Shown here in pieces: positions 23,901 through 64,000 of a stretch of DNA of 64,000 nt. Source of the stretch: Mugil cephalus (taxonomy: Eukaryota > Chordata > Actinopteri > Mugiliformes > Mugilidae); NCBI RefSeq assembly GCF_022458985.1, contig NC_061776.1:1301719-1365718 (forward strand). Direction: 5' to 3'. The position numbers and the translations under genes were made by a program. The notes under the pieces were generated by a model that saw only the letters and a program-made list of their open reading frames with translations, did not search any database and was not told the origin of the DNA. Position 1 is the first letter of the stretch; every line of letters begins with the position of its first letter.

Positions 23901-25335
23901 TCATCTCATCTCTACCTCTAATCCTGAAATTCATCTCATCTCTACCTCTAACCCTGAAATTCATCTCATCTTTACCTCTTATCCTGAAATTCATCTCATC
24001 TCTACCTCTAATTCATCTCATCTTTACCTCTAATCCCTGAGTCCTGGAGAAAACCAGGATCAGAAAAAACTTTATCTCCGAGGGGCAATAAGGAGGCGAA
24101 GGGCAGAACTTAGAAAATAAAGAGCGTAAGTCACAAAGTGGGCGGGCGACAGTAGCGTATTGTGTGCGATAGTAACATATTGTGTGCGACAGTAGCGTAT
24201 TGTGTGCGATAGTAACATATTGTGTGTGATAGTAACATATTGTGTGTGATAGTAACATATTGTGTGCGATAGTAACACATTGTGTGTGATAGTAACATAT
24301 TGTGTGTGATAGTAGAAGACTGAAATGAAATGGTCATGTCCTGTGTGGTGTGGTGGTGAATGGTGGTGGGGGGGGCACAGGGACCGTACCTGTACCTCAC
24401 ACGCAGACACAGGGAGAACAAGCAAACGTCCCCAGAAAAACCGGAGCTGGACTCGGACCCGGATCAGTGCTAATCACTAAGTATGAATCACGTCCTTTTC
24501 AGTGCGTTTGTTGTAGATTCTCGTCTAGTTCCGTGATTTAGTGAATATTTATCTTTGTTACTAACAGGAGCGGTTCCTCTACTCGTTGCAGTTTATATGT
24601 TTATATGATACCGTGCAGCGACAATGAGGAGTCTGATCTCTGATCTGATCTAATTAACACTTTTGGAGGCGACTGTGAAACTCGTGAGTATCAGCTAAGA
24701 ACTTCATCGAAGCTGTTGTCATGGAAACAACGGGAAAGTATTTAACAACCCATTAAACGTTTGTGAAGTTTGATTAAATGTTTTGGAGACGTGGCTTATG
24801 GTGCTTTCCTCTGAATGTGGAACAAAATGATCCAATATTTAAAAGATTTCATTACAACCACGTTATGGAAAAGTCTGAATATTTCTAAAACACGTGTCTG
24901 ACTTTCTAAATGATTCCCAGACCAAGAGTATACAGAAATAAATGTGACGGTTTCACCGCTGAACCGGTTCACTGAGGACCCGCGGCCTCCGATGGGGCCG
25001 CGAACCACATGTTGGTGGTTTTGATTTACCTGGAGCTCCGGACCGGAGGACGGGCTGGACAGAGGCCGCCGGAACCCGTCGCCTCTGCGCCGCATCTGAC
25101 CACCGAAGCCCCGGGACCCGCCACCGAACCCGACCGGGGAACCGTAGCTGTGCCCTCGGTTGGAACCGGCGGAGTAGACCGGAGAGCCCGGGGAGTAGGG
25201 GGGGCAGGCCCGAGGGGAGCCTCCGTACGGGGACCGGGCCCCGGGGAAACCCCAGCAGGACACCGGGGACGGGAACCTTCCGGCGGCCCGAGGAGCTCCG
25301 GGACTCCGCTGAGGTCTGGCCGGAGGTCGGTACAT
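20976..25335 (-). CDS. mplkip: M-phase-specific PLK1-interacting protein (TTDN1)
   Basis: Small nuclear protein. In humans its loss causes non-photosensitive trichothiodystrophy and it binds PLK1 in mitosis (family knowledge). Two minus-strand exons: 25335-25030 and 21098-20976, joined in phase 0 by GT-AG; 142 residues against about 179 in human. Exon 1 encodes a Pro/Gly/Arg/Ser-rich N-terminus starting MYRPPARPQ, with repeated SPYGG, YGSP and GGS runs typical of the family. Exon 2 holds the conserved core EKYFSPSMLQDPW (human NYFKPSMLEDPW) and a following VTTVD. The protein then ends RRTAT and lacks the human GKKGRYFC tail. The start was taken at the Met aligning with the human N-terminus; the longer upstream frame to 25497 runs into the 5' flank. 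Confidence 0.9.
21208..24030. repeat. 2.8-kb 30-bp minisatellite filling the mplkip intron
   Basis: Roughly 90 copies of a 30-bp unit (attcatctcatctctacctc followed by taatcctgaa), with a 15-18-bp short form (attcatctcttcctctaaccctgaa). 30 bp is a multiple of three, so it yields long spurious frames on both strands. Near 22085-22400 and 23400-23500 many units have single-base deletions. Confidence 0.95.
24145..24315. repeat. 20-bp minisatellite in the mplkip intron
   Basis: Eight to nine copies of tagtaacatattgtgtgtga, with tgcga variants. Confidence 0.9.
24320..25029 (-). other. Non-repetitive 5' part of the mplkip intron
   Basis: About 700 bp next to exon 1, without a recognised exon or transposon. 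The minus-strand frame reading past the exon 1 donor (to 24796) is an intronic extension. Confidence 0.5.
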
Positions 25336-25496: not shown

Positions 25497-26912
25497 TTAA
25501 AGTTTGTAAGGTTTATAAGATTTATAAGGTTTATAAGGTTTATAAGGTTTATAAGATTTATAAGGTTTATAAGGTTTATAAGGTTTATAAGATTTATAAG
25601 GTTTATAAGATTTATAAGGTTTATAAGGTTTATAAGATTTATAAGGTTTATAAGGTTTATAAGGTTTATGAAGTTTATAAGGTTTATAAGGTTTATAAGG
25701 TTTATAAGATTTATAAGATTTATAAGGTTTATAAGATTTATAAGATTTATAAGGTTTATAAGGTTTATAAGGTTTATGAAGTTTATAAGATTTAAAGTTT
25801 ATAAGATTTATAAGGTTTATAAAGTTTATAAGATTTAAAGTTTATAAGATTTATAAGGTTTATAAAGTTTATAAGATTTAAAGTTTATAAGATTTATAAG
25901 GTTTATAAGGTTATAAGATTTAAAGTTTATAAGATTTATAAGGTTTATAAGGTTTATGAAGTTTATAAGATTTAAAGTTTATAAGATTTATAAGGTTTAT
26001 AAAGTTTATAAGATTTATAAGGTTTATAAAGTTTATAAGATTTAAAGTTTATAAGATTTATGAGGTTTATAAAGTTTATAAGATTTAAAGTTTATAAGAT
26101 TTATAAGGTTTATAAGATTTATAAGGTTTATAAAGTTTATAAGATTTAAAGTTTATAAGATTTATAAGGTTTATAAAGTTTATAAGATTTATAAGGTTTA
26201 TAAAGTTTATAAGATTTAAAGTTTATAAGATTTATGAGGTTTATAAAGTTTATAAGATTTAAAGTTTATAAGATTTATAAGGTTTATAAGATTTATAAGG
26301 TTTATAAAGTTTATAAGATTTATAAGGTTTATAAAGTTTATAAGATTTAAAGTTTATAAGATTTATAAGATTTATAAGGTTTATAAAGTTTATAAGATTT
26401 ATAAGGTTTATAAGGTTTATGAAGTTTATAAGATTTAAAGTTTATAAGGTTTAAAGTTTATAAGATTTATAAGGTTCATAAGATTTATGAGGTTTATAAG
26501 GTTTATAAAGTTTATAAGATTTATAAGGTTCATAAGATTTATGAGGTTTATAAAGTTTATAAGATTTAAAGTTTATAAGATTTATAAGGTTTATAAGATT
26601 TATAAGGTTTATAAAGTTTATAAGATTTAAAGTTTATAAGATTTATAAGGTTTATAAAGTTTATAAGATTTATAAGGTTTATAAAGTTTATAAGATTTAT
26701 AAGGTTTATAAGGTTTATGAAGTTTATAAGATTTAAAGTTTATTAGGTTTAAAGTTTATAAGATTTATAAGATTTATAAAGTTTATAAGATTTATAAGGT
26801 TTATAAGGTTTAAAGTTTATAAGGTTTATAAGATTTAAAGTTTATAAGATTTATAAGATTTATAAGGTTAAAAGTTTATAAGGTTTAAAGTTTTAAAGTT
26901 TATGAGGAAGAA
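25497..26912. repeat. 1.4-kb array of 9-bp TTTATAAGG/TTTATAAGA units upstream of mplkip
   Basis: More than 150 copies of tttataagg or tttataaga, with a tttaaag variant that appears after about 25790 and organises the array into longer higher-order units. The 9-bp unit keeps frames open (Val-Tyr-Lys or Phe-Ile-Arg repeats); these are not genes. Confidence 0.95.
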
Positions 26913-31022: not shown

Positions 31023-31693
31023 CTACTTACAGTATTTTTAAAACATCCATTATGCCACCTTTACTTATGATTATAAACAAATCTATCGATGAGAGCATTT
31101 TTCCTAGTGTGCGTAAACCTGCCATAGTTACCTTGTGTACAAATCTGGTGATACACAGGTGGTCAGCAGCCACCGACCTATCACCATCCTCCCAGCCATC
31201 TCAAAGGTCATTGAAAAGGTCGTAGCAGAGCAACTAACTGCACATCTGGCTTCTAAGTCCCTTTTACATCCAATGCAGTTTGGTTTCAGAAAGAAACCCT
31301 GTACTGAAACAGCTTGCTGCTACTTCCTTGAGGAAATTAAAACCAGCCTAGATCAAGGAGGAGTGGTGGGAGCAGTCTTCCTTGATCTACGCAAGGCCTT
31401 TGATACAGTAAATCGTGAGGTGCTGCTACATAAATTAAGAAATTATGAACTCTCTGTGAATGTACAAAACTGTGTGAAGTCTTGCCTAAGTGGTCGACAC
31501 CAGTGTGTACGAGTGAATGGTGCACTATCTCCATTTCTAGCATCCACACTGGGAGTCCCTCAAGGGTCAGTTCTAGGGCTGCTGCTGTTTTGTTTATACA
31601 TTAACGAGTTGCCTTCTGGCTGTAAGGATGTTGACACTATAATGTATGCTGATGACACTGTATTGTATACTCATAGGAAAAATGTCACAGAGG

Positions 31694-31821
31694 TGGCTGT
31701 GAAATTAACAAAGGCAATGAAAAAGGTTAGTGATTGGTTATAAAACTCATGCCTCACGTTAAATGTGGAAAAAACGGTAACCATGTTCTTTACAAATAGG
31801 TGGAAACTTAAAAGTTATCCT
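31694..31821. repeat. Left copy of a 128-bp direct repeat flanking the L1-type insertion
   Basis: Identical in length to 37276-37403 and, by eye, differing at one base (gaaaaagg here, gaacaagg there). It lies inside the older LINE's RT sequence. Confidence 0.9.
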
Positions 31822-37275: not shown

Positions 37276-37403
37276 TGGCTGTGAAATTAACAAAGGCAAT
37301 GAACAAGGTTAGTGATTGGTTATAAAACTCATGCCTCACGTTAAATGTGGAAAAAACGGTAACCATGTTCTTTACAAATAGGTGGAAACTTAAAAGTTAT
37401 CCT
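37276..37403. repeat. Right copy of the 128-bp direct repeat
   Basis: Repeats the host LINE sequence at 31694-31821, after which the host LINE reading resumes with tgacattgtagtaaatggg. This fits duplication of the target on insertion. Confidence 0.9.
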
Positions 37404-38300
37404 GACATTGTAGTAAATGGGCAAAAAATAAAACATGTAGAGCAATTTAAATACCCGTAGGTAACATTAGATCCAACACCTTCTGGTGTACATCCTGGTC
37501 TCAGGCATGTAAAACAGTTACAAAACCACTAGAGTCACTGTACAAAAGCAGATCTATGCCAAAAAACCACGGCATTACCATCATTCTCATGTACTCGCCA
37601 AATATGGTATTTTGAGCTTTGAAAACTTGAGTATACACTCAAATATTTATTTACTTCACAAAATTATCCATAATGCTTATGCCCCCCCCCCCCGAAAACG
37701 TTTGTGACGCTCTGAACACACAGCACGACTAACTCGATCTGTTGTGAGAGGTGAGTGTAACATTCCTCAACGTAGAACTCAGTGTGGCAGCTTTTATTTT
37801 TCATGTGTGGCCATGAGTCAGTGGAATATCCATCCCACGTATTCTCAGGCTTGTCAAAGCGCTGGTTACTGAGTAAGCAAGTTTGCACACGTTGTTGAGT
37901 ATGTATACTTGTCTGGTTATTAATACGTGTATGAGTGTGGTTATTAGAGGAGGATGGGGAAAGCTGGACTGTTACCTGTGTATGTGCTTGTGTTTGAATG
38001 TGTGATGAGAGTAAGAGAGAGTATGTGCTATTGATCCCATATGCACTTCATGATTTAGCAATCTTGTTCCCTGCTCTTACTAGTGTATTCTATCTGTTTT
38101 TAAAATATTATGGTCATCATGTCACTTATCTGTCATATTTCAATCATTTTAATACTGTATTTGCTTTCAAGTTACCTGCCCAGGGACTACAGGCAGAAAT
38201 GAGCAATTGTTGCTGTAACCTGGCTCAAAGCATCTCTTTTTGTTTTACAAGATTAATGTTTTTTTGTGCATTGTCCCTGTTTTTAAATAAATAAATTCAA
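37404..38300 (+). pseudogene. LINE, 3' portion of the split element
   Basis: Resumes at the equivalent of YPDIVVNGQKIKHVEQFKY and continues with decayed C-terminal RT sequence, then a 3' UTR ending gtccctgtttttaaataaat, typical of L2/CR1-like fish LINE tails. Several stops and a C-run (37683-37692). Confidence 0.75.
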
Positions 38301-46535: not shown

Positions 46536-49500
46536 ATGGCGGAAATCAAGACGGGAATCTTCGCTAAAAACGTCCAGAAGCGTCTGAACCGAGCGCAGGA
46601 GAAGGTGAGAAGGCAGATGGAGGGTGGAGGGATGGAGGGTGGAGGATAGACGGAACTAGGATGGAGGGTCGACGGGGGAGGACAGGCGGAGGCTGGAGGA
46701 CGGATGGACGCTGTGGATGCAGTTCGGAGGCTGTGGGCCTCTGGATCAGTTGATCAAAGTCAAACGAGTCGTTTCCGTTTTTTTGAAGCGACAGCGGCTG
46801 TACAGAGGTGGTGACGTCATGATCCCGTTAAAATCAGCTGATAAAAACAACGTATAATGATTAAAGTAATGCGGAGCCTCTGATTGGCTGCAGCAGGTGG
46901 ATTAACATCAAGGCGTCACAAACATGTCGTTTAAATGAAGTCCACTGGCGCAAGGTCGAAGGCGCGGGGGGGGGCTACGCAATGACGCCAGGTCTGACGA
47001 CAGTCCAACAACATGGCGTCATTCATGGGTTGTCTAGGTGTTAAATTTAGTTTAAATCGATGTGATTGGTCTGATCAGAGTCACATGACTCATTCATTAT
47101 TAAAGCAGTTTATTCACAGAAAGTCTGAAGCTGTCAAAAAATCTGACTCTAGAGGACAGACTCTAGAGAACGGACTCTAGAGGACAGACTCTAGAAGACA
47201 GACTCCAGAAGACAGATTCTAGAGGACTCACTCTAGAGGACGGACTTTAGAAGACAGATTCTGGAGGACAGATTTTAGAGGACGGACTGTATACGACGGA
47301 CTCTAGAAGACAGACTCCAGAGGACGGACTCTAGGAGACAGATTCTAGAGGACGGACTCTAGAGGACGGACTCTAGAAGATAGACTCTAGAAGACAGATT
47401 CTAGAGGACGGACTGTATACTGAACTCTAGAGGACAAACTCCAGAGGACAGACGCTGGAGGACAAATTCTAGAGGACAGACTCTGGAGACCCGAGGACAG
47501 AGATGGAAGACATGTGACCCAAACACTGAATCATCTTTTCTGTGTTTTCTCAGGTTTTGCAGAAACTTGGAAAAGCAGACGAGACCAAAGATGAACAGTT
47601 TGAACAAGTCGTCATCAACTTCAGAAGACAAGAGGTGAGAGACATGTCCTCCTCTTCCCCCTCCTCTGCGAGACCAGGGAGAGGTCAATGGTTTCCATGT
47701 GGCCCAGTTAGAGGGTTCAGGGCTAGTGACCCTGTCCAGACCTGGTCTTGGGGTTAATGACTCATATGATGACAACGTAACCATGTACTGGTATTGGCAT
47801 GAGGTGGTCATAATCTTTTGGCAGGTGGCCTGACACAGCATCCTGTTGGTAGAGAGAACAGAACTGCAGCTGGAGCGTAGGACCTGAAGGCTTGTTGACC
47901 TGTCTCAGGGGGTGGAGGGGGCCCCGTCTGGTCTAGATAGGGGCTACGTCCACACCCATGAATGCCAGGTCCAAACCTTTCCCAGCACAACATTGAACTG
48001 TCACAAGATGGTCTATGAAAATTTCTTCTCCTGTCAGTGGTCATAATGTTGTGGCTGATGGGTACGGATATAGAGTTCATAGAGCTGCACTGAGCTCTGT
48101 GTCAACCTTCATTTTCATTTATTACCAGACGTTTCCTCTAAATGATCTATGTCTGGAACTTGTCGGTTTAGTTGGTTCTTCTCATCAGTTCCTGGAACTA
48201 GTCCCCGTTGTAACCCGTGTTCTGTGTTCAGTCTGAAGGTTCTCGGCTGCAGAGAGAGATGAAGGCCTACATGTCTGCGATCAAAGGTGACAAACATTAT
48301 CTCTATCAAACCACATCCATCCCTGTACTAGACTCCTTCCTCTGGAGTACGATGACCATCAGTGAGGGTCTGGTTGTTTGTGTGTTTGTGCAGCGATGCA
48401 GCAGGCCTCCATCAACCTGACCCAGTCTCTGCATGAGGTCTACGAACCGGACTGGCATGGAAAGGATGATGTCATGGTCATCGGGAAGGTGAGAGTCATG
48501 GAAACACCTACACAACACCTACACACCTGAACACATCGCAGATATGATGGAAACCACATTAACAAATATTCACTACATTTATTTGTACTGTAACCTTTGT
48601 TGAGCCATAGATTGTTTATTGCATAGAGGTCTGAGGAAACATTGTATAAAACTATTACAAAACCAATTTTACAACAGAGAGCAATAAGGATAACCACCAG
48701 GGCTGATTATCAAGACCCAACAAACTAATTATTTATAAACTCACAGACCTTAAATTCAATGATCTTCTGAACTATAAAACTGCTCAAATTATGTATAACG
48801 TAAATAAAAACCTGCTTCCAGAGGATGTTTCAGACAGAGATATGTGTGTATAGGGATGCAAAGGTATGAACAAATGTTAAAAAAAAAAAAAAAAAAAAAT
48901 GTGGATCAATTAAAGGAGTCAATATATGGAATAATCTAGATTTAGAAATGAACACATGTAACAAGCTTAATAGTTATAAAGACTTACTGAGATACAATAT
49001 CATCAATACATAGAAAAGTGAATTATAAGCACACTGCTCATAAACTGTTCACTGGACATAATGTACACGTTTTGTTCTGAATGAATCTTAAAATGAGCAG
49101 ATGGAAAAATGGTGATTTAAAAAGTCTAGACAAAATAAGATGAAACCTTTTCACTCAAGGTACATTTGTTTAGTTTTCGTAAATTATATTTTAACAGAAA
49201 AAGAAAGAAGTGAATTACTATTTTTTCTTGTGTACAAAAAGTTTGTACCTGACTGAAGTAAACTGAATAAATAAAAACAAACAAAAAAAGAGGTAGATGA
49301 CACCAAAACACGTCACAAAGGTAGACACGGTGTTACGTGAACACATCACACGGGGAGACACATAGGCCAATCAACAGCTGAACGGCTAACCCCCCGAACC
49401 CTAACCCTAACCCCTCTAACCCCTAACCCCCCTAACCCCCCTAACCCTAACCCTAACCCCCTCTAACCCTTAACCCCTCTAACCCCCCTAACCCTAACCC

Positions 49501-52037
49501 TAACCCACTCTAACCCTTAACCCCCCTAACCCTCTAACCCTCTAACCTCTAACTCCCTACCACCCGAAACCTAACCCCCTAACCCCCCTAACCCTGTAAC
49601 CCTCTAACCCCTAACCCCCTAACCCTAACCCTAACCCACTCTAACCCCTAACCCTTACCCTCCAATTCCTTACCCTCTAACTCCTAACCCTGTTAAGTCC
49701 TAACCCTAAACACTAATGCTAACTTCCCTAGTGTTGATTGTAAAACAGTTTATCTCCATGTTTGTTTCCTGCAGGACTGTGATGCACTGTGGGAAGACTT
49801 CCATAACAAACTTGTTGACTCAACGCTGTTGAACCTGGACGCATACCTGCAGCAGTTCCCAGACCTAAAAGTCAGCAGCAGTTTGTTGTTTGGTTAAAGT
49901 TTTTCATATTGAAAACAGATTCACCGCATGAATTTATCTGTTGTTTCAGACTCGTGTGGCCAAAAGAAGTCGGAAACTCATTGACTACGACAGCGCACGT
50001 CATCACGTAGAGACTCTGCAGACGTCTGGGATGAAGAACGACCGCAAGATGATGAAGGTGAGAGCAGAACATGATGGAGGTTGGGATATTCAGCTGTTCA
50101 GTGGCAGCCTGGCATCACCTGAATAAATTCAGTTCCTCTCAGAATCCGGTAGCTGTCCATCTGGAGATAGTCCTCTAATCAATCCGACTCATTTAGTGTG
50201 GAAACTAATCAAATGATGTGAGACTTCCGTCACTCTTATGGCCATCACCATGTTAAGCCCCGCCCCTATGATCTGATTGGCCTAGCATATCTTTCCTGGA
50301 GAAGAATCAGTTCCTGACAAAAGACTCCAGAACAACAGTCCTCCGCTACACATTTAGTGGTGGAGTAGTTGCCTCTCGTCATCAGTCTGTGCAGGATTCC
50401 ACCACAGTGTGCTGCCTTCTTTTCTGCCGTTTTGAGCCAGATGTTTCTGATCTGGTGTTGAATTTAATATTTCTGTCATGTGTTTGAAGTGATTTAGTGA
50501 AACAGTGTTTGTGTGCAGGCAGAGGAAGAGTTGAAAAAGGCCCAGAGAGTGTTTGATGAGCTGAACGTTGGTCTGCAGGACGAACTGCCAACTCTCTGGG
50601 ACCGGTGAGTCTCATCTCAAACTTCCTAAACACAAACTAATCTAAATAATTTTGTGTTTCTATGGAAACTGGTCTGTTGGTCAGTACTGTGCAAAAGTTT
50701 TAGGCAGGTGTGGGGAAAATGCTGTAAACTAAGAATGCTTTCAGGCATATAAACTTTATTTTTTTTATCAATTTGCAAAATGCAAAGTGAGTGAACAAAA
50801 ATCCCATTAATATTTGGTGCTACTACCCTTTGCCTTTAAATCAGCAGCAGTTCTTGCAAAAAAGTTAGGGACTGCAGTTATGTGTATGATCAACACATTC
50901 TACTGAACAGGTGCTAACATTCATCACTGTCACGTGTAGAATGAAACCTAGTCGTTAACTGAAAGAGAAACAGCTGTGTATGAGGCTTCAAACTGGATGA
51001 AGAAAAGCCAGACTGTGCCACTAAGGTGAGGTGTGGAAGACAGGTTCATGTCACAGATGAATACAGTACACTATGGCGAGATTGAGCACAGCAACAAGAC
51101 ACAAGGTAGTTCTACTGCATCAGCAAGGTCTCTCCCAGACAAATATTTCAAAGCAGACTGGTGTTTCAAGATGAGCTGCTCAAGCTCTTTTGAAAAAGCA
51201 CAAAGAAACAGCAACGCTGAGGATCGTAGACTCAGTGGTTGGCCAGGAAGCAGCAGATGAAAAACAATCAAGATTATTTCCACTTTTAAATGTGAAGAAC
51301 TCCACAGGTCAGATATTCAGCCTCCAGACCAGAGACCCTCACAAGAAGATGGAGGGAGAGAGGGAGACACAGTGGTTAGTAAATTATAAGAGATAGAAAA
51401 TAAAATGATAAGATATTAGAGGACAGGAGCCAGAGAAGAAAGAGGAGAGGACATGTCCTCAGTGCATCGTCCCCCTGCAGCCTAGGCCTATAGCAGCATA
51501 ACTAAGGGTTGGTTAAGTCCAGCTCTAACTATAAGCTTTGTCTAAAAGGAAAGTCTTAAGCCTGACCTTAAACGTAGAGAATATAGAATGTAGAATGTAG
51601 AATAACTGTTCAGTAAATACAGTTTACGTGTTTAAAATCTTCATATTAATGCAGTGTGAACAGTAGTGTTTTAATGTAGACACAAAGAATCATCTTACTG
51701 ACATGAATATATGCATCAAAGCGTTAATTGAAGGCTAAGGTAAAATATCGAGATATATATTGTGTATTTGTGACATGTCCTAAAAACAATTAGTTAGGTT
51801 TAATTAGGTTTACATATTATATATTGCAATTATGTATGGCCACCTTGCACATGACACATTTGTATATATTTTTGTATATTATTATTATTATTATTATTAC
51901 TATTATTATTATTATTATTTACTTACTATTTACCTTTACTACCTCAGTAGTTTATATTTTATTGTACCCAAATACCGGACTGCTGTGACAACCTAATTTC
52001 CCTTTGGGGATCGATCAATCAATCAATCAATCAATCA

Positions 52038-52116
<79 letters not shown>

Positions 52117-55100
52117 CATCCATCCATCCATCCATCCATCCATCCATCCATCCATCCATCCAGTAAAAGGCTATATCGCTCAGCCCAAGTCTGAAGTCTT
52201 CCAGGACTCTGAAGCTGCAGCTCAGATTGTGGCTGATCCCCGTCAGCCTGGACTCAAACTATTTAATAGACCCCCCTCTGGCAGGAGGCTGATTTTTCCA
52301 GGTTTCTGAGCCATAGAATAGAGTGGTCTTTACGTTTGAGTTGAAGATTTGTAGCTTAGTCTTGAGTGACAGGTTTTTTGCCTTCCAGATATTGCTTAGC
52401 ATGTTGAATGTTGTCCTTGCCTTTCCACAGAAATGATGGTCCTGAAGTATGTGAATCTGTTTACATCTTCTAGTGAGTTTTGGTCCATGATTATGAATGT
52501 TTTGTTCTTTAATAATCCTAAGGGTGGTAATTTGGTCTCCACAGGAACTGTTGTTCCTGAAGCCAGCCTGGTTTTCCCTCAGTTTCTCATTGACATTCTG
52601 GAGCCTTTCCAGCAGGATGTAGCTGAGCACCTGAACTCTCAGGTGTTGAAAGGGGCATTATTCCTCTGTAGTTTTTATAGTCCCTGAGGTCTCCTTTCTC
52701 AGGGACTTTCACGATGTGGCCATCTTTTCAGTCAGATGGGTGGAGCATGTTGGTGGAGCTTTCAATGTCGGCCTTGAAAGCTTCTGCTGGAATCCTGTCT
52801 GGTCCCTCCGCTTCACGTCATCTTAGGACATAATGGCTTTTCTTATTTCCAACTTGTTGGGGAGGTTGCAGATTGTCTCCAACTGCCCTGGGGCTGGTGG
52901 GATATCTGCTTTCAGCTGAGGAGGCTGCCTGTCGAGCAGATCTCTGAAGTGTTCGGTCCAGCTCATCACCTGTTCTTCCTTGGTAGATGTCACCCATCCA
53001 GATCAAGATGTCCTTTCCTTTCCTGGTATGGAGGATGGTGTATAGTTGGTTGTAGAATTGCTCCTTGGTTTTCTCGTCAGCATCGTTGGTAGGAGTGTAG
53101 CATTGTACAAGTTGGAAGTTTATTTTCTTATGCGTGCTTTAGAATTTGGCTGTGATTATCCGTGAGTTGATGGGTTCCCAGCTGATAAGGGTCATCTGTG
53201 CTTCTTTGGACAGCATGAAGGCTACTGTGTGTGGTGCAGAGTCATCTGGATGTCCTGAGTATGGTCTCTCCTCTCGCTAATTTGACTTAGGGTTAGGGAG
53301 ACTGACTGGAGCCACCTGGTTTCTCCTAGACCAAGGAGAGTTGTCCCATACCTCCTCATCTCCTCAACAATCACTGCTGCCTTTCCTCCTGCATACATCC
53401 TCACGTTCCATGTCACCATGGGGATGAGTCACCTCAAGGTCAGAAGCTTCAAATGTACAGTATGCTTGTGGTTTTCCATGCACGTCGTCATAGTCTATTT
53501 AGCTTGGGGCGCTGAAGAGGCTTCCTTTCCAAGACCTGAGGGTTTTTGAGTATCTTTCTGTAGCTATAGGCTTTTACAGGATGAGGTTGCTAGTCCCGAG
53601 CCCAACCCCCACCTGTGGAGGAGTTTTGGAGTTGTTTTGTTAGTCCTCTTCCCTGTTGAAGGCCGGGTTTCCCAGATGTTTGGTCTGGTCAATCAGAGCT
53701 TTTGAGGGCAGCTTCATGAAGGCAAAGGGTGGTCACACCAAATATTGTCTGAAAATACAGTCTGAATTAAATTTTTATTTGCTTCAGAGTGAGCTCAGCC
53801 ATAGAGAAACTGGAAAGAAGACTGTGAGACTGTAGAGCTGCATTCTGGTCTCAACCGTGTGTTTTTTGCCAGTAACATTGAATGGATTCCTCTCTGACCT
53901 GATTTTCAGCAGGTTATTAGTTTGGTAAAACGATCAGTCCTTGTGAGGCTCTAACAAAATCCCAAAAGAACCAAAAAGGAAAGTGTGAACCTTAAGACTG
54001 AGACTCACCTGATTGTTGAAGACCATTGATATGAATAGCATTAGTATGAAACGATTGTTTATACCGGCTCACATCATCAGTTTGTCTTCATGTCTATTGT
54101 CAAGTTAATGAAGTCAGCATTCACTGAGCTGCTCTGGTTCATATAAGAGTCAGTTTTTTTTAAAGCCAAGTGCCTCCTGAAAAAAAAGAAGAGGCTGAAT
54201 GATGTGACATGTCAGTCTGAACACGGCTGATTCAAGCTTTTATATATTTATAGATGAGACAAAAGGAATCCTGATCATCATTTCACTGCTTTAATACTCT
54301 AATACTTTAATACCTGCAGCCGGGTCGGTTTCTACATTGGCACATTTAAGAGTGTGACGAGTCTGGAGGCAAAGTTTCACCGTGAGATCTCACTGGTGAG
54401 ATTTTCTTTTGTCTTTGATTGACTACTTCTTTAAATAAAGCTACAGTATATTAACTCAGACCAACAGTGTCTGGGCCTGAATTATCATTGGACTTGTAAA
54501 TAATGATATTTCCTGTAACCCTGCAGGTGTGCAGACAGCTATATGAAGTGATGACCCAACTGGCAGAGCAGCACTCTGATAAAATGTTCACCATTCAAGG
54601 AGCTCCCAGGTCAGTGCCAGTGCCCACTCTCTAACCTTTCACTTCACAGATACATTGTTTTTGTGTAATTTTGTATAAGAGTTTCTGAGTTACACATATC
54701 TGGCAGATTAAAAAAAAGAAAGTGAGCACAATGACAGATTACTGGTGGAGTAAATTTTATTTACCAAAAAGCTGAAAAAATGCTGCATCTAGTCTTTAGG
54801 GGACATTCATGTTTCCCAGGGGCTGGTATAAATGGGCTAACATGGCTAAGACCTCCCAAGCTAACACAAAAACGATGAGAAAATAGTTTTTTAAATAACT
54901 TACAATGGATTCTTTTACGTTTTGATGAAACCACAGGCAGCAGCACCACCAAAAAGTCTATGAAAACATAGACTATCTCTAAATGGGCTGATTTATTACA
55001 CACCCAACGCCCCCAGTCTATTCTATTCATTAAATTCTTGTAAGTGATTGAAGTGTTATCCACTGATCATTTGGGCTAAATCCAGTCAGCTCTCAGGCTG

Positions 55101-58100
55101 CTCATTGGTCTAAAGTGCTGCTGGTGTCAGAGTGGCAGGAGCCAGAAGAAGTTCAGCTATGGCGGAGTTAGCATGAACCAGGTGGATAACTGGTATTCTA
55201 ATCTTTTTCCTTAATGACTTTGGAGAAAAATTGGAAGTTAAGAGACAAATGGTTTTCAAATAACTCGAAGGGACAAATTACAAATTCGTAAGTTTTGTGT
55301 TTCTGGTTTGAAAGAAATTACTGGCTAATGGGAAGTGTAGCCAAAAATTCACTTTTCTGTTTTCCATGCCTGTTTTTTTTTTTTTTTTTTTTGGAGGAGA
55401 TACGGCAAGAACCCAACAAGGTTCCTGTCAAGCTGAAATGTTTTGGTTTCAACATCTCACACTGGCCAGCCAATCAGAACACGGTTTTCTGTCTTATCCC
55501 TCAGTGATTCAGGACCATTGCGTCTCGCAAGGACACCTTCACCACCCGAAGATGAAAGTCCACCAGAGAGTCCGGATGCCAGCTCCAACCACATGCTGCG
55601 CCCTGTCTCACCTGGACCACCACGGCCCAAATCCCCCACACAGGTAGAACCTTACCTTAACTAAACCATCATCTCATCTCATCTCATCCTCAGGTCATAT
55701 AATTAGGTTATTGTGATTTGACTGATTGATAATATTTGTGATATTTGTAATTTATAGGCTATAGATACCAATGATTAGTACATATTATTGTCTGTGAGGT
55801 CATGGTTTATCTAAAAACAAAGCTCAAACAAAGACTACTGGATTTTAGTCTGAGCTGAAGCAGAACTCTAAGTATGTCCTGTTAGCTTACAGTGATTGCT
55901 AACAGAACTAACTCATAATGATGTTGATAGACAGTCATGGTGCAGAACAAAGTCTCTTTCTTGTCTGAACTTGATCGTAACTTTCTGTGACTGTTTTTTC
56001 TTTGCTGCTACTTTTGTGTGTTGATTGGTGAGTGAACCAAATGCTAGTTTGTTGTCATGTGTCTGTTCCAACCTGTATTTAGAGATGATAAGACCCCAGT
56101 GTTGTTGTGTACAGTCGAAACTTAAAGTAGAATACCTCTATGATTCTACTGACAGTTCAGATATCGCTGTCTTTCCTTCCATAGTATTTTAAAGAGGTGT
56201 GTGTGTGTGTGGATATGTGCATAGATGTGTGTGTGATATGCAAACGCTTCTAGAACACTGGTTCAGTTGGTTCTGGTGCTGTAAGACTAAATTAGATAGT
56301 TTATTTATCCCAAGGTGTTTGTGATGATGAGTTGATGGCTGAAACACATGGTCACAGTTGTGAGAAGGTTCTGCAGCTTCTCAAAAACATCACCTTGAGG
56401 TTAACAATGAACAACGCTTCTTTCTCTGTCAGTCCAATCAGAACATTCACCACCCGAACACCTTTACAGACTACGGTCTAGTCCCTTTGTACGCCGATTA
56501 GTTCTGATGGATCCTAGTTTGAAGAAGTATCTGTTGTCTGTAAGTCTGTACTTTTACTTTCAGACATTTAGGGTTGTTTAAACTGAACAAATGAATAGCT
56601 TTCTACTCCAGTCTTCATAATGAAACATTTCAAGAAGTTTTGATGAACTTTCTTCAAATATTCAGATTGTCTGACCTCAACAAGCCTCCATTTGTCCTGA
56701 ACCCTGCCCTCACATTAACTAAACAAAAACACATTACCAACGGAAGTGATGTGATTTTAATTTTATACATTCATAAAAGGACAACCTCACTGTAACATCA
56801 TGAAGAAACATGACATACCGTAAATGAATCGTATCAGTTGACTGGTTGGTGGAGGCGTACAAATGCGTATATATCCCACATACTTTTGTTTGTACTCCAT
56901 GTTGGAACCAGTGTTTTAGAACCTCTCATCCTCATCTTAACAGTACAATATTTAATTCATGTTGTACTTGTCTGTTGGAGGTTTCATTAAAACAAATACT
57001 TGTTACTCACTCCTCAGAGTATGATTTATTAATGTCAGCAAACATTTTTAATGGAACAATTTTTTTTACCATCCTACACTGTGACACAGAGAGCCTTTGA
57101 GGTGGAGCACTTAAATCGCCTTAAAACGTCGTCTTCTTTTTTGTCTTTTCATCCCCAAATCTAACCATTTTCAGCTCCACAGCTGTAAAATTAAAATAAT
57201 TGAAATAAAATCCATTCAAATCTCTCATCAGGCCATGTAACATTTAAATGTCTTTTGTACAAATTATAAAATAAAGAGTAAATAACAAAGAGTATGTGAC
57301 ATTGATGTTAGATTCTGAGGCTCTTCTAATCAGCCTGAAATAGAGGCAGCCAGTCTAAGTTGTATCTGTTCAGTCCTTTAGTCTCTGTGTCTTCAGACCA
57401 GTCCTCTAAATGCTTCATCTCCATGATCATGCTTCCACCACTAAAGCTGCTTCATGTTTCTGTGACTGTGGGTTCTAGTATTTCGCTGTGTTTCTCTTTG
57501 ACTGATGGCTCGATGGTGTTGGTGACTCTGCTGTGTGACTGAAATGAAATATATGTTCATTCACTACAGGGATGTTAAATGTTTTTGCTTGTGAGGGAAC
57601 TGTGAACATTAGGGAGCACTCTCGTTTACACCTGTAGTTTGTCTTGGAAACATTTACTGCTTCAGATCTAATTTGTGTCTTTGATTTCAAAGACAAACTG
57701 ATGACTGAAGGCTTTTTCATTTTTCTGTTCAACAATTAATAATAGATCACTTCTTGTCTTTAGCAGACACAGCCGAACCCTAACCCCAACCCTAACCCTG
57801 ACCAAGCTAACCCTAATCAAGCTAACCCCAACCCCAACCCCTAACCCTAATCAAGCTAACCCTAATCAAGCTAACCCCAACCCCAAACCCTAACCCTAAT
57901 CAAGCTAACCCTAACCAAGCTAACCCTAACCAAGCTAACCCCAACCCCAACCCCTAACCCTAATCAAGCTAACCCTAATCAAGCTAACCCCAACCCCAAC
58001 CCCTAACCCTAATCAAACTAACCCTAATCAAGCTAACCCTAACCAAGCTAACCCCAACCCCAACCCCTAACCCTAATCAAGCTAACCCTAATCAAGCTAA

Positions 58101-61100
58101 CCCCAACCCCAACCCCTAACCCTAATCAAACTAACCCTAATCAAGCTAACCCTAACCAAGCTAACCCTAACCCTAGCACCCTGTTGTCCTGCTCTTGTGA
58201 TCAGATGTGTTTTGGTTGTTGCTGCCTTGCTGTTCCGATTTATTAACATAGCTTTGTTTCATTTTTGTGAAGCTTAAAAAGGGTCCACCAGTGCCTCCAC
58301 CACCGAAGGTCACACCCACCAAGGAGGTGGCAGAGGAGCAGATTATCGATCTGTTTGGTGGAGAATTCTTACCAGCGCCTTCACCCTCACAGGTCTGAGT
58401 CCACTTCAGTACGGACAAACCAGTACATGCACTGTGTTATGAGTATGTTCTTACCTGTTTTCCCTTTGTTGTCATCTACAGCCCAATGAAAGACCTGGAG
58501 AGTCGCTTCTTGATCTAGACTTTGATGCTTTCCAGCCAGATGAAAGTGTTTCGCCAATACCACAGGTTTCATTCATCAACTGAACATGTTTCAGGACAAA
58601 ACAGCATCAGCACCATCACAGTATACATGTTTACATGCACGTGAAAAAACAAATTAGTGCCTTAATCCGACTTTAACTGTCTTTATCTGCACTGTAACTA
58701 GCATGCACACAATGTGTGAGATTAAAAAGCTGAACTATTCTCCATCTGGTTGTTGTTTGAAATGCTGGTCTGCCACATGAACGATTCTTGTTTATTATAT
58801 GATGTAACAGGTCAACCAGAAGGGGGGCCCCTATTAACATGGTATTAACCATGTGTGAAGGAGGAGGGCGTGTTCCTGTCAGTTAGGGTTAGGGTTTCTC
58901 CATTGCATGTAAACCAATGGAGGACTGTATTCAGAAAGTCAAATTTAGAGCACAGCTCTGTTAAGCTGCACATGTATGTGTGTCTACGTGCAGGTGGTCA
59001 TAAATCAGATCTTTTAGTTTGTGTTTGGTCAGATTTGATATATACTCTCTCCTTGTAGCAAACTACAAAAAGTAAGTTACAAAATAAAGAAGTAATCCTA
59101 TAAAGTGGCTTAGGGTTAGTACACTTGGTCTAAATACAGGTTCATCCTTCCCACTCTGTATTGGTTCAAGCTATAAGAATTGCTTGTTGATTCTAGTGTA
59201 TATAAGATGTGTGTTATTTTATTATCATTAGTCACACTAAACAACATTAACTCTTCTCTTTCAGACAGCTGTACCTTGGGATATGTGGTCGGTGAGTATG
59301 ATTTGCTAAATTATACAAATTTACATTTACTTCTAATACAACTTCACATCGGTCAATCAACAGAGAGTTACCCTGTTCAGTCAGGAACCATTTTCCTTTT
59401 CTTTTTTTCAAGGCCAATGCCCAAGCAGCTCAGCCTGTAAGTACCTCCAGTTACATGTGTTCATTTAAACTAATCAACAAGAGTCTTTTCCCGTTTCCAT
59501 ATTAAGTTTGAATGCATTTGTTTTCATTGTCACTTTTTTCAAGATTTGTTACAACGACTTTGACAGAGTTTCATTTTTTCTGCTAAAATATTGATGTGTA
59601 GTATCAGGCAAACACTTACATTCTTGGTCAGGGGCGTTTGTTACGTGTCATGTTCTCTTTGTCCAATAAAGTAATGGAATAAGGAAGAAAAGTGTAAATG
59701 GTAACTACTGGGCAATGCTCCAGAGTGGTGCTGGTGGCCCTTTCATCTTAAGTCAGTTCTACTGAAGGAAGAACCCGGTGGACTCAATTAATTCTAACAT
59801 CATTTGTGTCAAGTCTACTTTGTTTACATCCTCTGTGTCATGCCGGCCTTCCAGTCACAGGATGGGGCCAAAGTTTAACCCTTCATTCCCTGCCTTTCCA
59901 AGCAGGCTACAGATTCTGGTTTCGTCCCTGACTGGTCAGCTGACTTTGGTTCTGTGTCAGCAAACGGAGATGCTGGTTCTGGAGCTGAGGCCCCAGATGC
60001 TCCAGGGGCCACCGCTGTAGGGCCAGAAGGGGTGCAGGGCGAGACTCAGAGCTGGCCCCAGGCAGAAGGCTTGCAACCAGGTGCAGATCCAGCTACACCC
60101 ACCCAGGACTGTAATGCCAAGGCAGCTGAAGATGAGGTTAGCAGCTGGGACTCTCAAACTAACCCTCTTCCTCAGCCCTGTGGTAGTGATGAAGACGAGG
60201 CAGGGCAGTCAGATTCAGAAGGAGATCTGATAGGGCAACAAGACCACAGGAAGTCCACCCCAGGACTTATATTCACCAATGAGTATGGTGAACAGGTTGA
60301 GGAGATTGCAGAGGATCGAGGAGACAAGTGCTCCAGGTCTCCGGACGGATCTGGGTCTGAATATGAGACTGCTGAAGAGTGGGGGGATGGGGGTCAGGGA
60401 GGAGGCTGGGTGAGTGCTGATGACGAACTTTCCTGTGGACATCGCTCTCCAGTGAAGACGTCAGGGGCTGAGAGTGTAGCAACAGCACAAGTTTCACCAG
60501 AGGGCGCTGTAGCTGATGACTCAGGAAAACTAAGTGATGAGACTGAAACACAGGGAGGGGGGGGTGCGTTTGATTCGGATCCTTTTCCTGAAACACAGGG
60601 AGGGGGGGGTGCGTTTGATTCGGATCCTTTTGCTGAAACACAGGGAGGAGGGGGTGCGTTTGATTCAGATCCTTTTGCTGAAACACAGGGAGGAGGGGGT
60701 GCGTTTGATTCGGATCCTTTTGCTGAAACACAGGGAGGAGGGGGTGCGTTTGATTCGGATCCTTTTGCTGAAACACAGGGAGGAGGGGGTGCGTTTGATT
60801 CGGATCCTTTTGCTGAAACACAGGGAGGAAGGGGTGCGTTCGATTCGGATCCTTTAGCTGAAACACAGGGAGGGGGGAGTGCGTTCGATTCGGATCCTTT
60901 TGCTGAAACACAGGGAGGGGGGGGTACATTTGATTCGGATCCTTTAGCTGAAACACAGGGAGGGGGGAGTGCGTTCGATTCGGATCCTTTTGCTGAAACA
61001 AAGGGAGGAGGGGGTGCATTTGATTCGGATCCTTTTGCTGAAACACAGGGAGGAGGGGGTGCGTTTGATTCGGATCCTTTTGCTGAAACACAGGGAGGGG

Positions 61101-62355
61101 GGGGTGCGTTTGATTCGGATCCTTTTGCTGAAACACAGGGAGGGGGGGGTGCGTTTGATTTGGATCCTTTTGCTGAAACACAAAGAGGGGGGGGTGCGTT
61201 TGATTCGGATCCTTTTGCTGAAACACAAGGCAGTGCTGTTAGTGAACCGGGTGGGAACAGAAGGGAGGATTTTACTCAGGCCTCAGGTGAAGGTGGGGTG
61301 GATTTAGAGTCTTTCGCCAACAGTTTCCCAGCATCCTCTTCAGGAACTGAGGGTCCTACCTCCGACAGCACTTCCTGGCAGGACGCTGGCTCCACGTCTT
61401 CTGTCACTAAGCAAAGTTCAGCGTCCATCTGTGGAACAGCAGCACAAGGAAATAATGAAGTAAACTGTCCCAGAATTCACAAAGAACCAGAAAATTCAGA
61501 CATGTCCGAAGATGAGGCCGCAAACCGGAGATTTGGAAAGTTATACCAAGAGCTAGATAAAGAAAAGGAAGAGGTACTTACCTTCCTTCCGTCTTGGTGT
61601 GGTAGATAGCTTAGAGTAGACTAGAGATCAGTGAGAACCCCCCTTTCCTCTCTCCCCTCCCCCAGACTGAGAGAACATAAAGTCCAGTTGTTGCTCTGAA
61701 GTCTGGATCCCAGCCTGAGCTCCTCCTGCCTCCACTCTTGCTTGCTCCCATCTCTGAACGTCCTCTGCTTGTTCATCGTTTCACCCTGAATCTGCCTTTT
61801 TATTTTAGACTCATCTCACTTTAAAAACTAATTTGTGTCTCTGCAATTTAATTTAGGTGGCCAATTCATTTAATGGATTTTCACAGGTAACGTTGAAACT
61901 GAACTTGAAGTATATTTCACCTACTCAATGACTCAAATGTGCAGAGATGAGACGGATTTAGATCCTTTGATTCAGTATAAAGCTGTCCAACATTCAATGT
62001 TAAGTTGTTTTGGATTGTTTCTAATGTTCACTTTTTTTTGTCAATTTTTTTTATCCAAATCTTGCCACCAGAATTGTGTCTAAAACTATTCTGTTTTATT
62101 GTTGAGCAGTAAAATATGAACAGGAGAGAGGTCACTGATTTAAAGTAGCAGCATGCTTACAGCACCATACCCTTAGAAACCTTTATTCATCCCAGTAATG
62201 CCTCTTAAGTCTTTGACCAGTTTCTGTTGTGGGTGTTAAAATGTCCTGATGTCTCATCTCATAATGCTCATTAAATTTCTCTATTTCACATGCTGTCTGA
62301 AGGATGCAGCTGCTCCGGCATTTTTTGCTGATTTTGACAAGATGGTGAGTTGTAA

Positions 62356-62431
<76 letters not shown>

Positions 62432-62444
62432 GTCTATCTGTCTA

Positions 62445-62488
<44 letters not shown>

Positions 62489-63656
62489 ACCCTTTGCTGT
62501 TGGGAAGCTGTTGATGTGGTTTGTCATGTTCTTCTCGTTCAACTTAGTCGTCTTTTCCTCTTTCACTGTTTCACGGATTCTCTCCTTCTCTCCTTCTGGG
62601 AGTTCACCACGTTAGAGTGATCCAGATTTACTCCTTCTCCGCCTCCTTCTTCTTATGGATTTATCTCTTGTTGTGTTGCCTTTATTTCCCCATCCTCTCC
62701 ACCAGCTTTCCATTTACAGACCTAGGACTAGGACTAGGACTGCTGCTCTGAATTTAATGAACTGTGGAATCTTTTCTAGTCGGTTCTAATCAGATATGAC
62801 AGGAAGTGAAGATGACTTTAGACCAGAATTACATCCAACACATTACCACTGTTTCTTTTTGCAAAAGAACCAAGTTAACAGTGAACCAACGGAGTCTCCT
62901 GAAGCCTCAAAGACACCAGCTGCTAGTCCAGCAGAAGAACAACCTCCAATTCCCTCACCGGGAGGAGAACAGGATCAGCAGGCACCTCCATCTGAAGAAG
63001 AACAGGTGAAGGAACATGTAGCGCCTCCTGCTAGTGAGGTGGAGGAACATGTAGTGCCTCCTGCTGGTGAGGTGGAGGAACATGTAGCGCCTCCTGCTGG
63101 TGAGGTGGAGGAACAAGAAGCACCTCCTGCTGGTGATCAAGAAAAGATAGAAAAAGCTTCAGACAGCCCAAAGGAGGAGAAGCCAGCTGTAAGTGGATAT
63201 TTTGATGATGTGATAACAGCAACAGTGGCATTTGAGATCATCATCATTATCCTTATTGTCCTTATCACCATCTTCATCAAGTTCATCATCATCGCCATTA
63301 TTACCTTCATCTCCATCATTTCCATCTTCATCTCCATCTCCTTGTGGCTGTGGTGGAGCAGGTTGTCCACTAACCAGAGGGTTAGGGGTTTGATCCCTGG
63401 AACGTGCCACATTCTGAAGTGTCTGTGAACAAGACCCTGAACCCCCTGGTGTTCCCAGTTTGTAACCCTATTCACCACCATCTTCATCCATATCACCATA
63501 ATCTTCATCATCATCATCTTCATTGTTTAAATGAAATCAGACTGAAACTTAAGTGTCAGAGTGAAATGTTTTGAAGTTGAGGTTGAATTAAATCTGATTT
63601 TCTCTCTGAAGTCAACAGTTGGCTCTCCAGGCTCTGGCAAAGCAGATCTTGGTGAA
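46536..63656 (+). CDS. amph: Amphiphysin (N-BAR endocytic adaptor), 3' end beyond window
   Basis: N-BAR protein that bends membrane and links AP-2, clathrin and dynamin in synaptic vesicle endocytosis (family knowledge). Nineteen GT-AG exons, all in phase, 1,083 codons so far: 46536-46604, 47554-47634, 48232-48286, 48394-48488, 49775-49870, 49950-50057, 50519-50604, 54320-54395, 54527-54609, 55505-55643, 58273-58392, 58482-58565, 59265-59291, 59413-59436, 59906-61573, 61857-61886, 62303-62344, 62868-63188, 63612-63656. N-terminus [20 protein letters not shown] is amphiphysin rather than BIN1. The BAR domain spans about 1-249 ([15 protein letters not shown]). A Pro-rich PPRPKSP segment comes next. 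Clathrin motifs follow: LLDLD at 345-349 and PWDMW at 368-372. Exon 15 adds 556 residues with a DPF array. The SH3 domain is not in the window; a possible next exon starts near 63984. Already longer than human AMPH (695). Confidence 0.95.
47150..47490. repeat. GACTCTAGAGGACAGA minisatellite in amph intron 1
   Basis: About 20 units of a 15-16-bp gactctagaggacag or gattctagaagacag repeat, ending about 65 bp before exon 2. Many units contain TCTAGA. Confidence 0.85.
48560..49290 (+). pseudogene. LINE C-terminal fragment in amph intron 4
   Basis: The plus strand reads a decayed [27 protein letters not shown] and NKNLLPEDV, matching the C-terminal part of L2/CR1-like RT proteins (LQKRAVRII...LIMYKA..NLLP). 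Stops and an internal poly(A) run (48880-48899). Confidence 0.6.
49388..49705 (+). repeat. Telomere-like CCCTAA-derived array in amph intron 4
   Basis: About 310 bp of ccctaa, cccctaac and ccctctaac words. The vertebrate telomere hexamer is the core unit but it is imperfect. It ends about 70 bp before exon 5. Confidence 0.85.
50683..51360 (+). pseudogene. Tc1-like element (5' end and N-terminal transposase) in amph intron 7
   Basis: Begins with tactgtgcaaaagttttagg, a familiar fish Tc1 terminus. Decayed transposase N-terminus follows (51075-51260: STATRHK-like, QQ.S..EIS-like, then [13 protein letters not shown]). The catalytic half and 3' end are missing. Confidence 0.7.
51360..51640 (+). 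repeat. Interspersed fish repeat
   Basis: Contains ctgcagcctaggcctatagc, agcataactaagggttgg and ctataagctttgtctaaaag, words of a widespread teleost repeat. No coding sequence. Confidence 0.55.
51700..52160 (+). repeat. LINE 3' tail with ATCA/ATCT/ATCC tetranucleotide run
   Basis: A LINE-like 3' UTR ends at caacctaatttccctttggg / atcgatcaatc. It is followed by tcaa, tcta and tcca tetranucleotides (52011-52160), a normal retroposon tail. Confidence 0.7.
52180..53430 (-). pseudogene. RTE-like non-LTR retrotransposon remnant in amph intron 7
   Basis: On the minus strand, an endonuclease start ([14 protein letters not shown], then LLGLGETRW) near 53420-53310 is followed by RT sequence ([20 protein letters not shown], then [11 protein letters not shown]) near 52600-52500. 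Then comes a C-terminal [20 protein letters not shown] segment. Frameshifts and a deletion of the catalytic centre make it inactive. Confidence 0.75.
53440..54310. other. amph intron 7, right part
   Basis: No recognised element or exon; non-repetitive AT-rich intron sequence up to the exon 8 acceptor at 54319. Confidence 0.4.
55650..57760. other. amph intron 10
   Basis: About 2.1 kb without a recognised transposon or array apart from short GT runs near 56200. Short open frames have no motif. Confidence 0.4.
57770..58168 (+). repeat. Telomere-related minisatellite (CCCTAATCAAGCTAA) in amph intron 10
   Basis: About 400 bp of units combining ccctaaccctaa with atcaagctaa and ccccaacccc, in higher-order blocks of about 68-80 bp. 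It sits 105 bp before exon 11. Confidence 0.9.
59906..61573 (+). CDS. amph: amph giant exon 15 (556 codons)
   Basis: Acceptor tttccaagcag| at 59905 and donor GAG|gtactt at 61574. Phase 0 on both sides, so skipping it leaves the frame intact. Residues 382-937 of the reading. The N-terminal part is acidic and Gly/Asp/Glu-rich, starting [15 protein letters not shown]. The middle is the DPF array. The C-terminal part contains ESFANSF, then Ser/Thr-rich sequence and ends [15 protein letters not shown]. The open frame continues past the donor to a stop at 61607-61609, but the consensus donor and a downstream in-phase exon ([10 protein letters not shown]) show splicing there. It may be alternatively spliced, as internal amphiphysin segments are in other vertebrates. 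Confidence 0.88.
60545..61219 (+). repeat. Coding 45-bp repeat: 15 tandem DPF motif units in amph
   Basis: Exactly 15 units of 45 bp, 675 bp, in frame. Consensus [15 protein letters not shown]. Thirteen units end in DPF and two (units 7 and 9) in DPL. Other changes include GGRG, GGGS, ETK, ETQR and one FDLDPF. A 16th partial ETQG follows. Units are nearly identical at DNA level, many with G runs of 8, and every unit contains GGATCC. DPF is the established ligand of the AP-2 alpha-appendage platform site. Confidence 0.97.
62354..62488. repeat. TCTA/TGTC tetranucleotide array in amph intron 17
   Basis: About 20 tcta units followed by about ten tgtc units, starting 10 bp after the exon 17 donor at 62345. 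Confidence 0.95.
63007..63138 (+). repeat. 36-bp coding repeat in amph exon 18
   Basis: Four copies of a 12-residue acidic/Pro unit of the form [11 protein letters not shown] with variants ([15 protein letters not shown]). In frame, so it lengthens the disordered region between the DPF array and the SH3 domain. Confidence 0.85.
63240..63340. repeat. ATC-rich trinucleotide tract in amph intron 18
   Basis: Imperfect atc/atcatt array; a similar stretch at 63478-63525. Together with the intervening sequence it belongs to a 423-bp intron. Confidence 0.7.
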
Positions 63657-64000
63657 GTATGTTACTCCACTCTTGTTTTTATTGGCTCTTTATCTTCCAC
63701 TAATTATAAGTGAAAACTAAAATGTCTGTGAAGTGATGGAAATAGTATTTCCTGAGCCATTCAATGAAACTTCTTATGGTATGCTTGTCAAACTATTGGA
63801 TGATGTTTTATCAGACTGAATTTATAACCTGGTAACTGACTCTTTTAATTTTCAGGTCTTTTCTGGAGTACCCACAAACATTTTATTTAATCAATCACCT
63901 CATGTAGAATGATGTATGGCCAGGTTCTCTGATGACAACACTTGCTGTTCTGTTTGTTTGACGTATTTTCTGTCTGCAAACAGATTCTTCTTGCTGAAGA

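Follow-up and report, generated by a model that had tools for sequence, protein, structure and literature searches.

The closest described counterpart of a multi-DPF tail is Eps15, for which the accessible text of PMC4731787 gives fifteen DPFs. Two ways of reading such motifs have been reported. The AP-2 alpha appendage reads single DPFs with a Kd of about 120–200 µM, strict spacing being unimportant (PMC5694535 and PMC4921775, accessible parts), and several appendages can bind one array by avidity (PMC5694535, PMC4731787 and PMC4921775, likewise in part). According to the same portions of these three papers, the mu-homology domain (muHD) of FCHo/SGIP1 instead reads two or three DPFs that lie 2–3 residues apart.

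The closest described amphiphysin is a retinal one. Terada (2002) and Hosoya (2004) reportedly described amphiphysin Ir, a retina-specific amphiphysin I. In human retina, AMPH isoforms detected through five peptides are longer by 102, 406 or 415 aa, inserted downstream of BAR, and human AMPH is enriched in retina and brain (PMC11450717, accessible text). The AMPH insert peptides are given as novel and absent from UniProt in Table 2 of that atlas. Its accessible text states neither that other tissues lack the insert nor that it is identical with amphiphysin Ir, and Terada is not mentioned there; the insert may correspond to the one already known from amphiphysin Ir, and on our own reading we take it to be so. 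What amphiphysin does in ribbon-synapse endocytosis is unsettled, as the reviews conflict. In the accessible part of one (PMC11536687), a retina-specific amphiphysin variant acts in the fast endocytosis of bipolar cells, while slow AP-2-dependent retrieval needs no amphiphysin; in that of a second, dominant-negative amphiphysin had no effect on either fast or slow retrieval in bipolar terminals.

The window, that is, the whole 64-kb stretch of Mugil cephalus DNA that was analysed, contains the greater part of a gene with 21 coding exons, of which 17 lie inside the window, one spans its end and three are in L009 (Table 1). The model encodes 1215 aa with a BAR domain, a clathrin box and an SH3 domain; its sole stop is terminal, and AG/GT borders and matching phases were found at the joins throughout. 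Pfam recognised BAR (4.6e-47) in the product of the first twelve exons and SH3_9 (1.5e-9) in that of the last five. By sequence match the gene is amphiphysin 1, since the BAR part matched human amphiphysin in the PDB (4atm, 1.6e-117) ahead of BIN1 (9.9e-89) and BIN2 (9.1e-71). The SH3 part matched the amphiphysin 2 SH3 (1bb9, 1.8e-22), and BIN1 SH3 structures as well. The identification as amphiphysin in a preliminary description of this DNA is thus upheld by the BAR domain, the SH3 domain and the closest PDB entry, but the exon that was numbered 15 there is coding exon 13 of 21 in the present model. A PF03114 profile search of the genome listed no place in the amphiphysin gene, probably because the BAR domain is divided among short exons, and the BAR part gave no tblastn match in the extracted loci. 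Elsewhere in the genome, the BAR part had seven matches (on contigs C12, C23 and C4), all only 42–59% identical. The existence of another amphiphysin 1 gene that keeps the usual motifs was considered and rejected, the matches being taken as of the BIN1/BIN2 type.

Table 1. Positions of the exons, the repeats and the candidate splicing element, numbered from the first nucleotide of the window
Feature	Position	Strand	Description
e1–e12	46536..58565	+	Splice borders and phases; BAR = e1–e9; Pro/Ser-rich = e10, e11; clathrin box in e12
e13	59906..61573	+	1668 bp, coding for 556 aa; AG/GT borders, phase 0-0
DPF array	60545..61219	+	15 x 45-bp units, 225 aa; 13 DPF + 2 DPL
Stretch common to human retina insert	61493..61558	+	22 aa; aligned with DQDINNSDLSEDEIANQR and DEIANQRYGLLYQEIEA
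Five UAGs, candidate Musashi-1 cluster	61603..61624	+	30–51 nt after e13 donor
e14 (micro-exon), e15, e16, e17	61857..63656	+	Splice model
e16 coding minisatellite	63004–63136	+	33 bp x 4, in frame
e18 start	63984..64000	+	Remainder and e19–e21 (SH3) past the window, in L009; stop at L009:876

The array in e13 is real, being far beyond chance. TRF placed it at 60543–61227 (period 45, 15.2 copies, 94% match, 0% indels, score 1202), and in-frame cutting from 60545 produced fifteen units, the last of which ends at 61219, as the preliminary description of a single-exon array of 13 DPF and two DPL units had it. The motif at the end of the unit is DPF in 13 of the 15 (FDSDPF in 12 and FDLDPF in one) and DPL in units 7 and 9, so that D and P are kept in every unit and F in 13. 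The motif-to-motif spacing is 15 residues in all 14 intervals, which leaves gaps of 12 residues. When a degenerate pattern of the unit was searched across the 634.8-Mb genome, all 11 matches fell inside the array, and the reversed control returned 0. There were four other protein matches to the unit in the genome, each 29–35% identical and with internal stops. Among PDB sequences, the array matched only Nup54, weakly and through low complexity (E 0.09); this match was rejected.

The motif inventory of the protein is one-sided. All 13 DP[FW] motifs of the 1215-aa product lie inside e13; FxDxF, DNF and PW were each found zero times across the whole protein, and NPF was not found in e1–e16. A clathrin box, SLLDLD, is present in e12 and is followed by DAF, and there is a second match, LLNLD, within the BAR part. 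The protein reads FGGEF and DAF where human amphiphysin has FEDNFVP and one DPF, respectively. Provided that this human comparison holds, the protein minus e13 would be without a known AP-2 alpha motif. The preliminary description, in which the array adds avidity, therefore appears to give half of the picture, as the solitary FxDxF, DNF and DP[FW] motifs were not found outside the array. The accessible text of PMC6031744 reports that a DNF peptide disrupts the amphiphysin–AP2 interaction. BAR, clathrin box and SH3 are features common to mammalian brain amphiphysin 1 and the protein described here, whereas the PWxxW of the mammalian protein (PMC5694535, accessible part) has no counterpart in it. 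The reading that we favour, tentatively and at slightly under an even chance, is that a minisatellite-expanded DPF tail lies in a retina-type exon, that splicing of this exon is under Musashi-1 control and that the tail holds AP-2 multivalently.

It is possible, albeit at appreciably less than even odds, that the array is instead a neutral coding minisatellite, in which 45-bp copies have accumulated in a disordered exon and the DPFs have no effect beyond perhaps one weak site. The expansion may be mutational only, because the window contains 22 minisatellites (period 10–100, at least 4 copies) in 64 kb as opposed to 8 in the 200 kb of 20 other stretches from the same contig; the one in e16 is also coding. 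The changes among the units do not prove selection on the protein, since five of the 13 distinct changes are synonymous when 3.3 are expected (P 0.20), which is no significant excess. The loss of F from two units fits this alternative too, F-to-L being one of eight amino-acid changes among the units and at about the chance level. Frame-keeping was rejected as evidence of coding constraint, since 0% indels is a feature of further arrays in the window too. On the other hand, the unit contains a motif known from the protein's own pathway, the protein yielded no further AP-2 alpha motif, and the D and P have survived in every unit and the F in 13 of them.

The locus as a whole is rich in minisatellites. 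They are about nine times denser in the window, which lies 1.30–1.37 Mb from the contig start, than in the stretches from the same contig. Upstream of the amphiphysin gene there is a very long 30-bp minisatellite of about 96 copies (21207–24012), followed by a 9-bp array (25498–26907). The intron directly before e11 contains a CCCTAA-like interstitial array whose period is 49/113 bp (57776–58173), and a similar CCCTAA-rich tract stands before e5 (49386–49707). Open frames at 31117–31740, 37326–37457 and L009:3767–5402 resemble, by eye, fragments of LINE-type reverse transcriptases.

The number of units is a separate matter. A G-rich repeat may be collapsed or expanded in the reference, and individuals may differ, so that fifteen could be wrong or variable. 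This is rather unlikely in our estimate, and it is compatible with the other readings. The units are 94% alike and contain G-runs, and the identity of units 4, 5, 6 and 12, of 8 and 10, and of 2 and 13 suggests recent copying; against this, the 15 units are in frame, and private changes are present in units 1, 3, 7, 9, 11, 14 and 15. On the coding strand, most units between 60545 and 61219 contain a G-run of the G3AG8-like or G3AG2AG5 type, and the G-rich tandem DNA or RNA could form quadruplexes, which would favour gain or loss of units.

Whatever the number of units, the retina-type setting of the favoured reading comes from the last part of e13. The joined human peptides NSDLSEDEIANQRYGLLYQEIE, taken from the accessible part of the retina atlas (PMC11450717), were aligned with the end of e13 with 15 of 22 residues identical and a score of 85; the best of 500 shuffles scored 42, and none reached 85. 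Two of the five human insert peptides, which overlap one another, align with e13, and the other three do not. The exon is likely the counterpart of the human retina AMPH insert, judging from this alignment, which makes the retina the first place to look for it. Like amphiphysin Ir and the retina insert, e13 is a large insert of the same gene downstream of BAR, with the conserved stretch near its end; the sizes are 556 aa here, of which 225 are the DPF array, and 406 or 415 aa in human. Pfam found no family in the whole e13 frame. The composition of the multi-DPF chain (24.9% Gly, net charge −42) points to disorder, and e13 is likely disordered. On this view the insert would be of a known retinal kind, and what appears new is its multivalent DPF content. 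The absence of an earlier account, as claimed in the preliminary description, agrees with the literature search: no amphiphysin with a DPF array appeared in the titles and abstract starts among the matches listed, a scope outside which most subscription papers fall. Many of the matches on dpf were zebrafish titles, where the term seemingly means days post fertilization.

The sequence downstream of e13 is consistent with such a setting. In the accessible parts of two studies, photoreceptor exons are associated with UAG clusters, the sites of Musashi-1, that lie no further than 200 nt from the 5' splice site (PMC6952364), and clusters on the downstream side with three or more UAGs at a spacing of 10–15 nt are enriched up to 8-fold (PMC4991804). 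Among 20 donors of the gene, only that of e13 is followed by a cluster of five UAGs in which neighbouring motifs are no more than 15 nt apart; the next best, e10, has three. Such a cluster occurred in 0.56% of 20,000 200-nt windows sampled from 20 stretches of the same contig, one of which (L024) had been picked for a BAR match; the test was a post hoc one, made with the sequence already known. Tight clusters (five UAGs in 30 nt) were found five times in 400,000 background strand-bases, two of them being TAGA repeats, and there is another inside the window, at about 43475 within a minisatellite. A bare count of UAGs in 200 nt was discarded as a signal, because e10 also has five and 7.8% of background windows reach five. 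The gaps between the UAGs after e13 are only 1–2 nt, tighter than the published 10–15 nt, which weakens the support that they give. The cluster is thus suggestive of a possible Musashi-1 or photoreceptor control of e13. AMPH is not named as a photoreceptor exon in the accessible parts of PMC4991804 or PMC6952364, one of which only cites Terada.

Phase 0 at both ends of e13 means that the exon can be skipped without a frameshift. Its donor, GAG/GTACTT, has six of nine consensus bases, a score equalled by five others and undercut by one of the 17 donors scored. A short brain form made through an internal donor was tried and rejected: the sole phase-0 donor with at least 7/9 consensus sits 504 nt into the exon, so that skipping of the whole exon is equally likely. 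The pyrimidine words of PTBP-like type upstream of e13 (ten, the second highest among 16 exons with a range of 0–11) were not adopted as support.

These splice signals also bear on the reading of the preliminary description, in which e13 belongs to brain amphiphysin generally and the array forms an AP-2 scaffold at all synapses. The exon is a coding one, as described there, and the DNA forbids no constitutive use, as the splice sites are usable and the phases are 0-0; the human gene, moreover, is enriched in brain as well as in retina. However, the similarity to the retina insert, the UAG cluster after the donor and the 6/9 donor, though not unusual among those scored, shift the setting towards the retina, and brain-wide use appears improbable. 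A nerve-cell AP-2 scaffold is plausible on the sequence, perhaps one of the eye rather than of the whole brain.

As to what would bind the tail, the preliminary description took DPF to be a motif of the AP-2 alpha appendage, and the accessible parts of PMC4921775 and PMC5694535 agree and add that it is read singly. With its 12-residue gaps, the array suits this single-DPF binding and not that of FCHo/SGIP1. The alpha-adaptin C-terminal family PF02296 is present at two places in the genome. The likeness to Eps15 proposed earlier holds in that both proteins have many DPFs in a disordered tail (13 here), and the avidity mode by which the single DPFs of Eps15 bind AP-2 in the accessible sources is also the one proposed for the array; it fails for the muHD-type spacing, as Eps15 has DPFs 2–3 residues apart that bind FCHo/SGIP1 (same sources) and no such close pairs exist here. 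Unlike Eps15 and Eps15R, moreover, the array is derived from a minisatellite, has a regular 15-residue period and is part of a BAR/SH3 protein; no EH domain was detected by Pfam in e13, e1–e12 or e17–e21, that is, in all but the 131 of 1215 aa encoded by e14–e16. It is very improbable that another partner such as the FCHo/SGIP1 muHD reads the array instead of AP-2. This domain does bind Eps15 DPFs and favours Gly or small linker residues, but its structures have DPFs 2–3 residues apart and a 5-residue linker already binds weakly (accessible sources), compared with gaps of 12 in 14 of 14 intervals here.

Taken together, the favoured reading of a retina-type AP-2-holding tail may be envisaged as follows. 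A coding minisatellite would have expanded within the amphiphysin 1 exon that encodes the retina-type insert, and Musashi-1 would control the splicing-in of e13, which would most likely take place in photoreceptors or in other cells with ribbon synapses. Inclusion of the exon would add 13 single DPF motifs to the protein, on an acidic and flexible tail whose contour length is about 85 nm. Each motif would bind weakly to the platform site on the alpha appendage of AP-2. One BAR dimer, with 26 motifs, could then retain several AP-2 complexes through avidity, in the manner of the single DPFs in Eps15, and the tail would act beside the clathrin box, the membrane-bending BAR domain and the dynamin-binding SH3 domain. 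Without e13 there would be no DP[FW] or FxDxF, so that the coupling to AP-2 would be switched by splicing. In a worm-like-chain estimate, neighbouring motifs are 5.7 nm apart along the contour and 2.1 nm in rms distance, and the whole array has a contour of 85 nm. In our estimate, adjacent motifs could hardly hold two appendages simultaneously, so that perhaps every second motif is usable, i.e. 6–7 per chain, a number that BAR dimers would double. From the gene model, the motif inventory, the similarity to the human insert and the UAG cluster, we infer a splicing pattern of e13, its AP-2 binding and valency and a consequence for vesicle retrieval; avidity, condensation and a synaptic role would follow in the same conditional manner.

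A natural amphiphysin in which the AP-2 alpha motifs lie only in a retina-type exon, as a regular row of nearly identical single DPFs, would amount to a ready-made experiment on how far the valency of a single weak motif affects coat recruitment, and it could also address why the retina uses its own amphiphysin. It would exemplify how, through a minisatellite, a short linear motif may become a tunable scaffold. A wider proposal, which we consider unlikely, is that the lineage has shifted its AP-2 binding from solitary motifs, now decayed, to an array of variable copy number, where splicing switches the binding and the number of units tunes it. If this were true, the coupling of amphiphysin to AP-2 would be adjustable at the tonic synapses of the eye, through an exon of photoreceptors or other ribbon-synapse cells.
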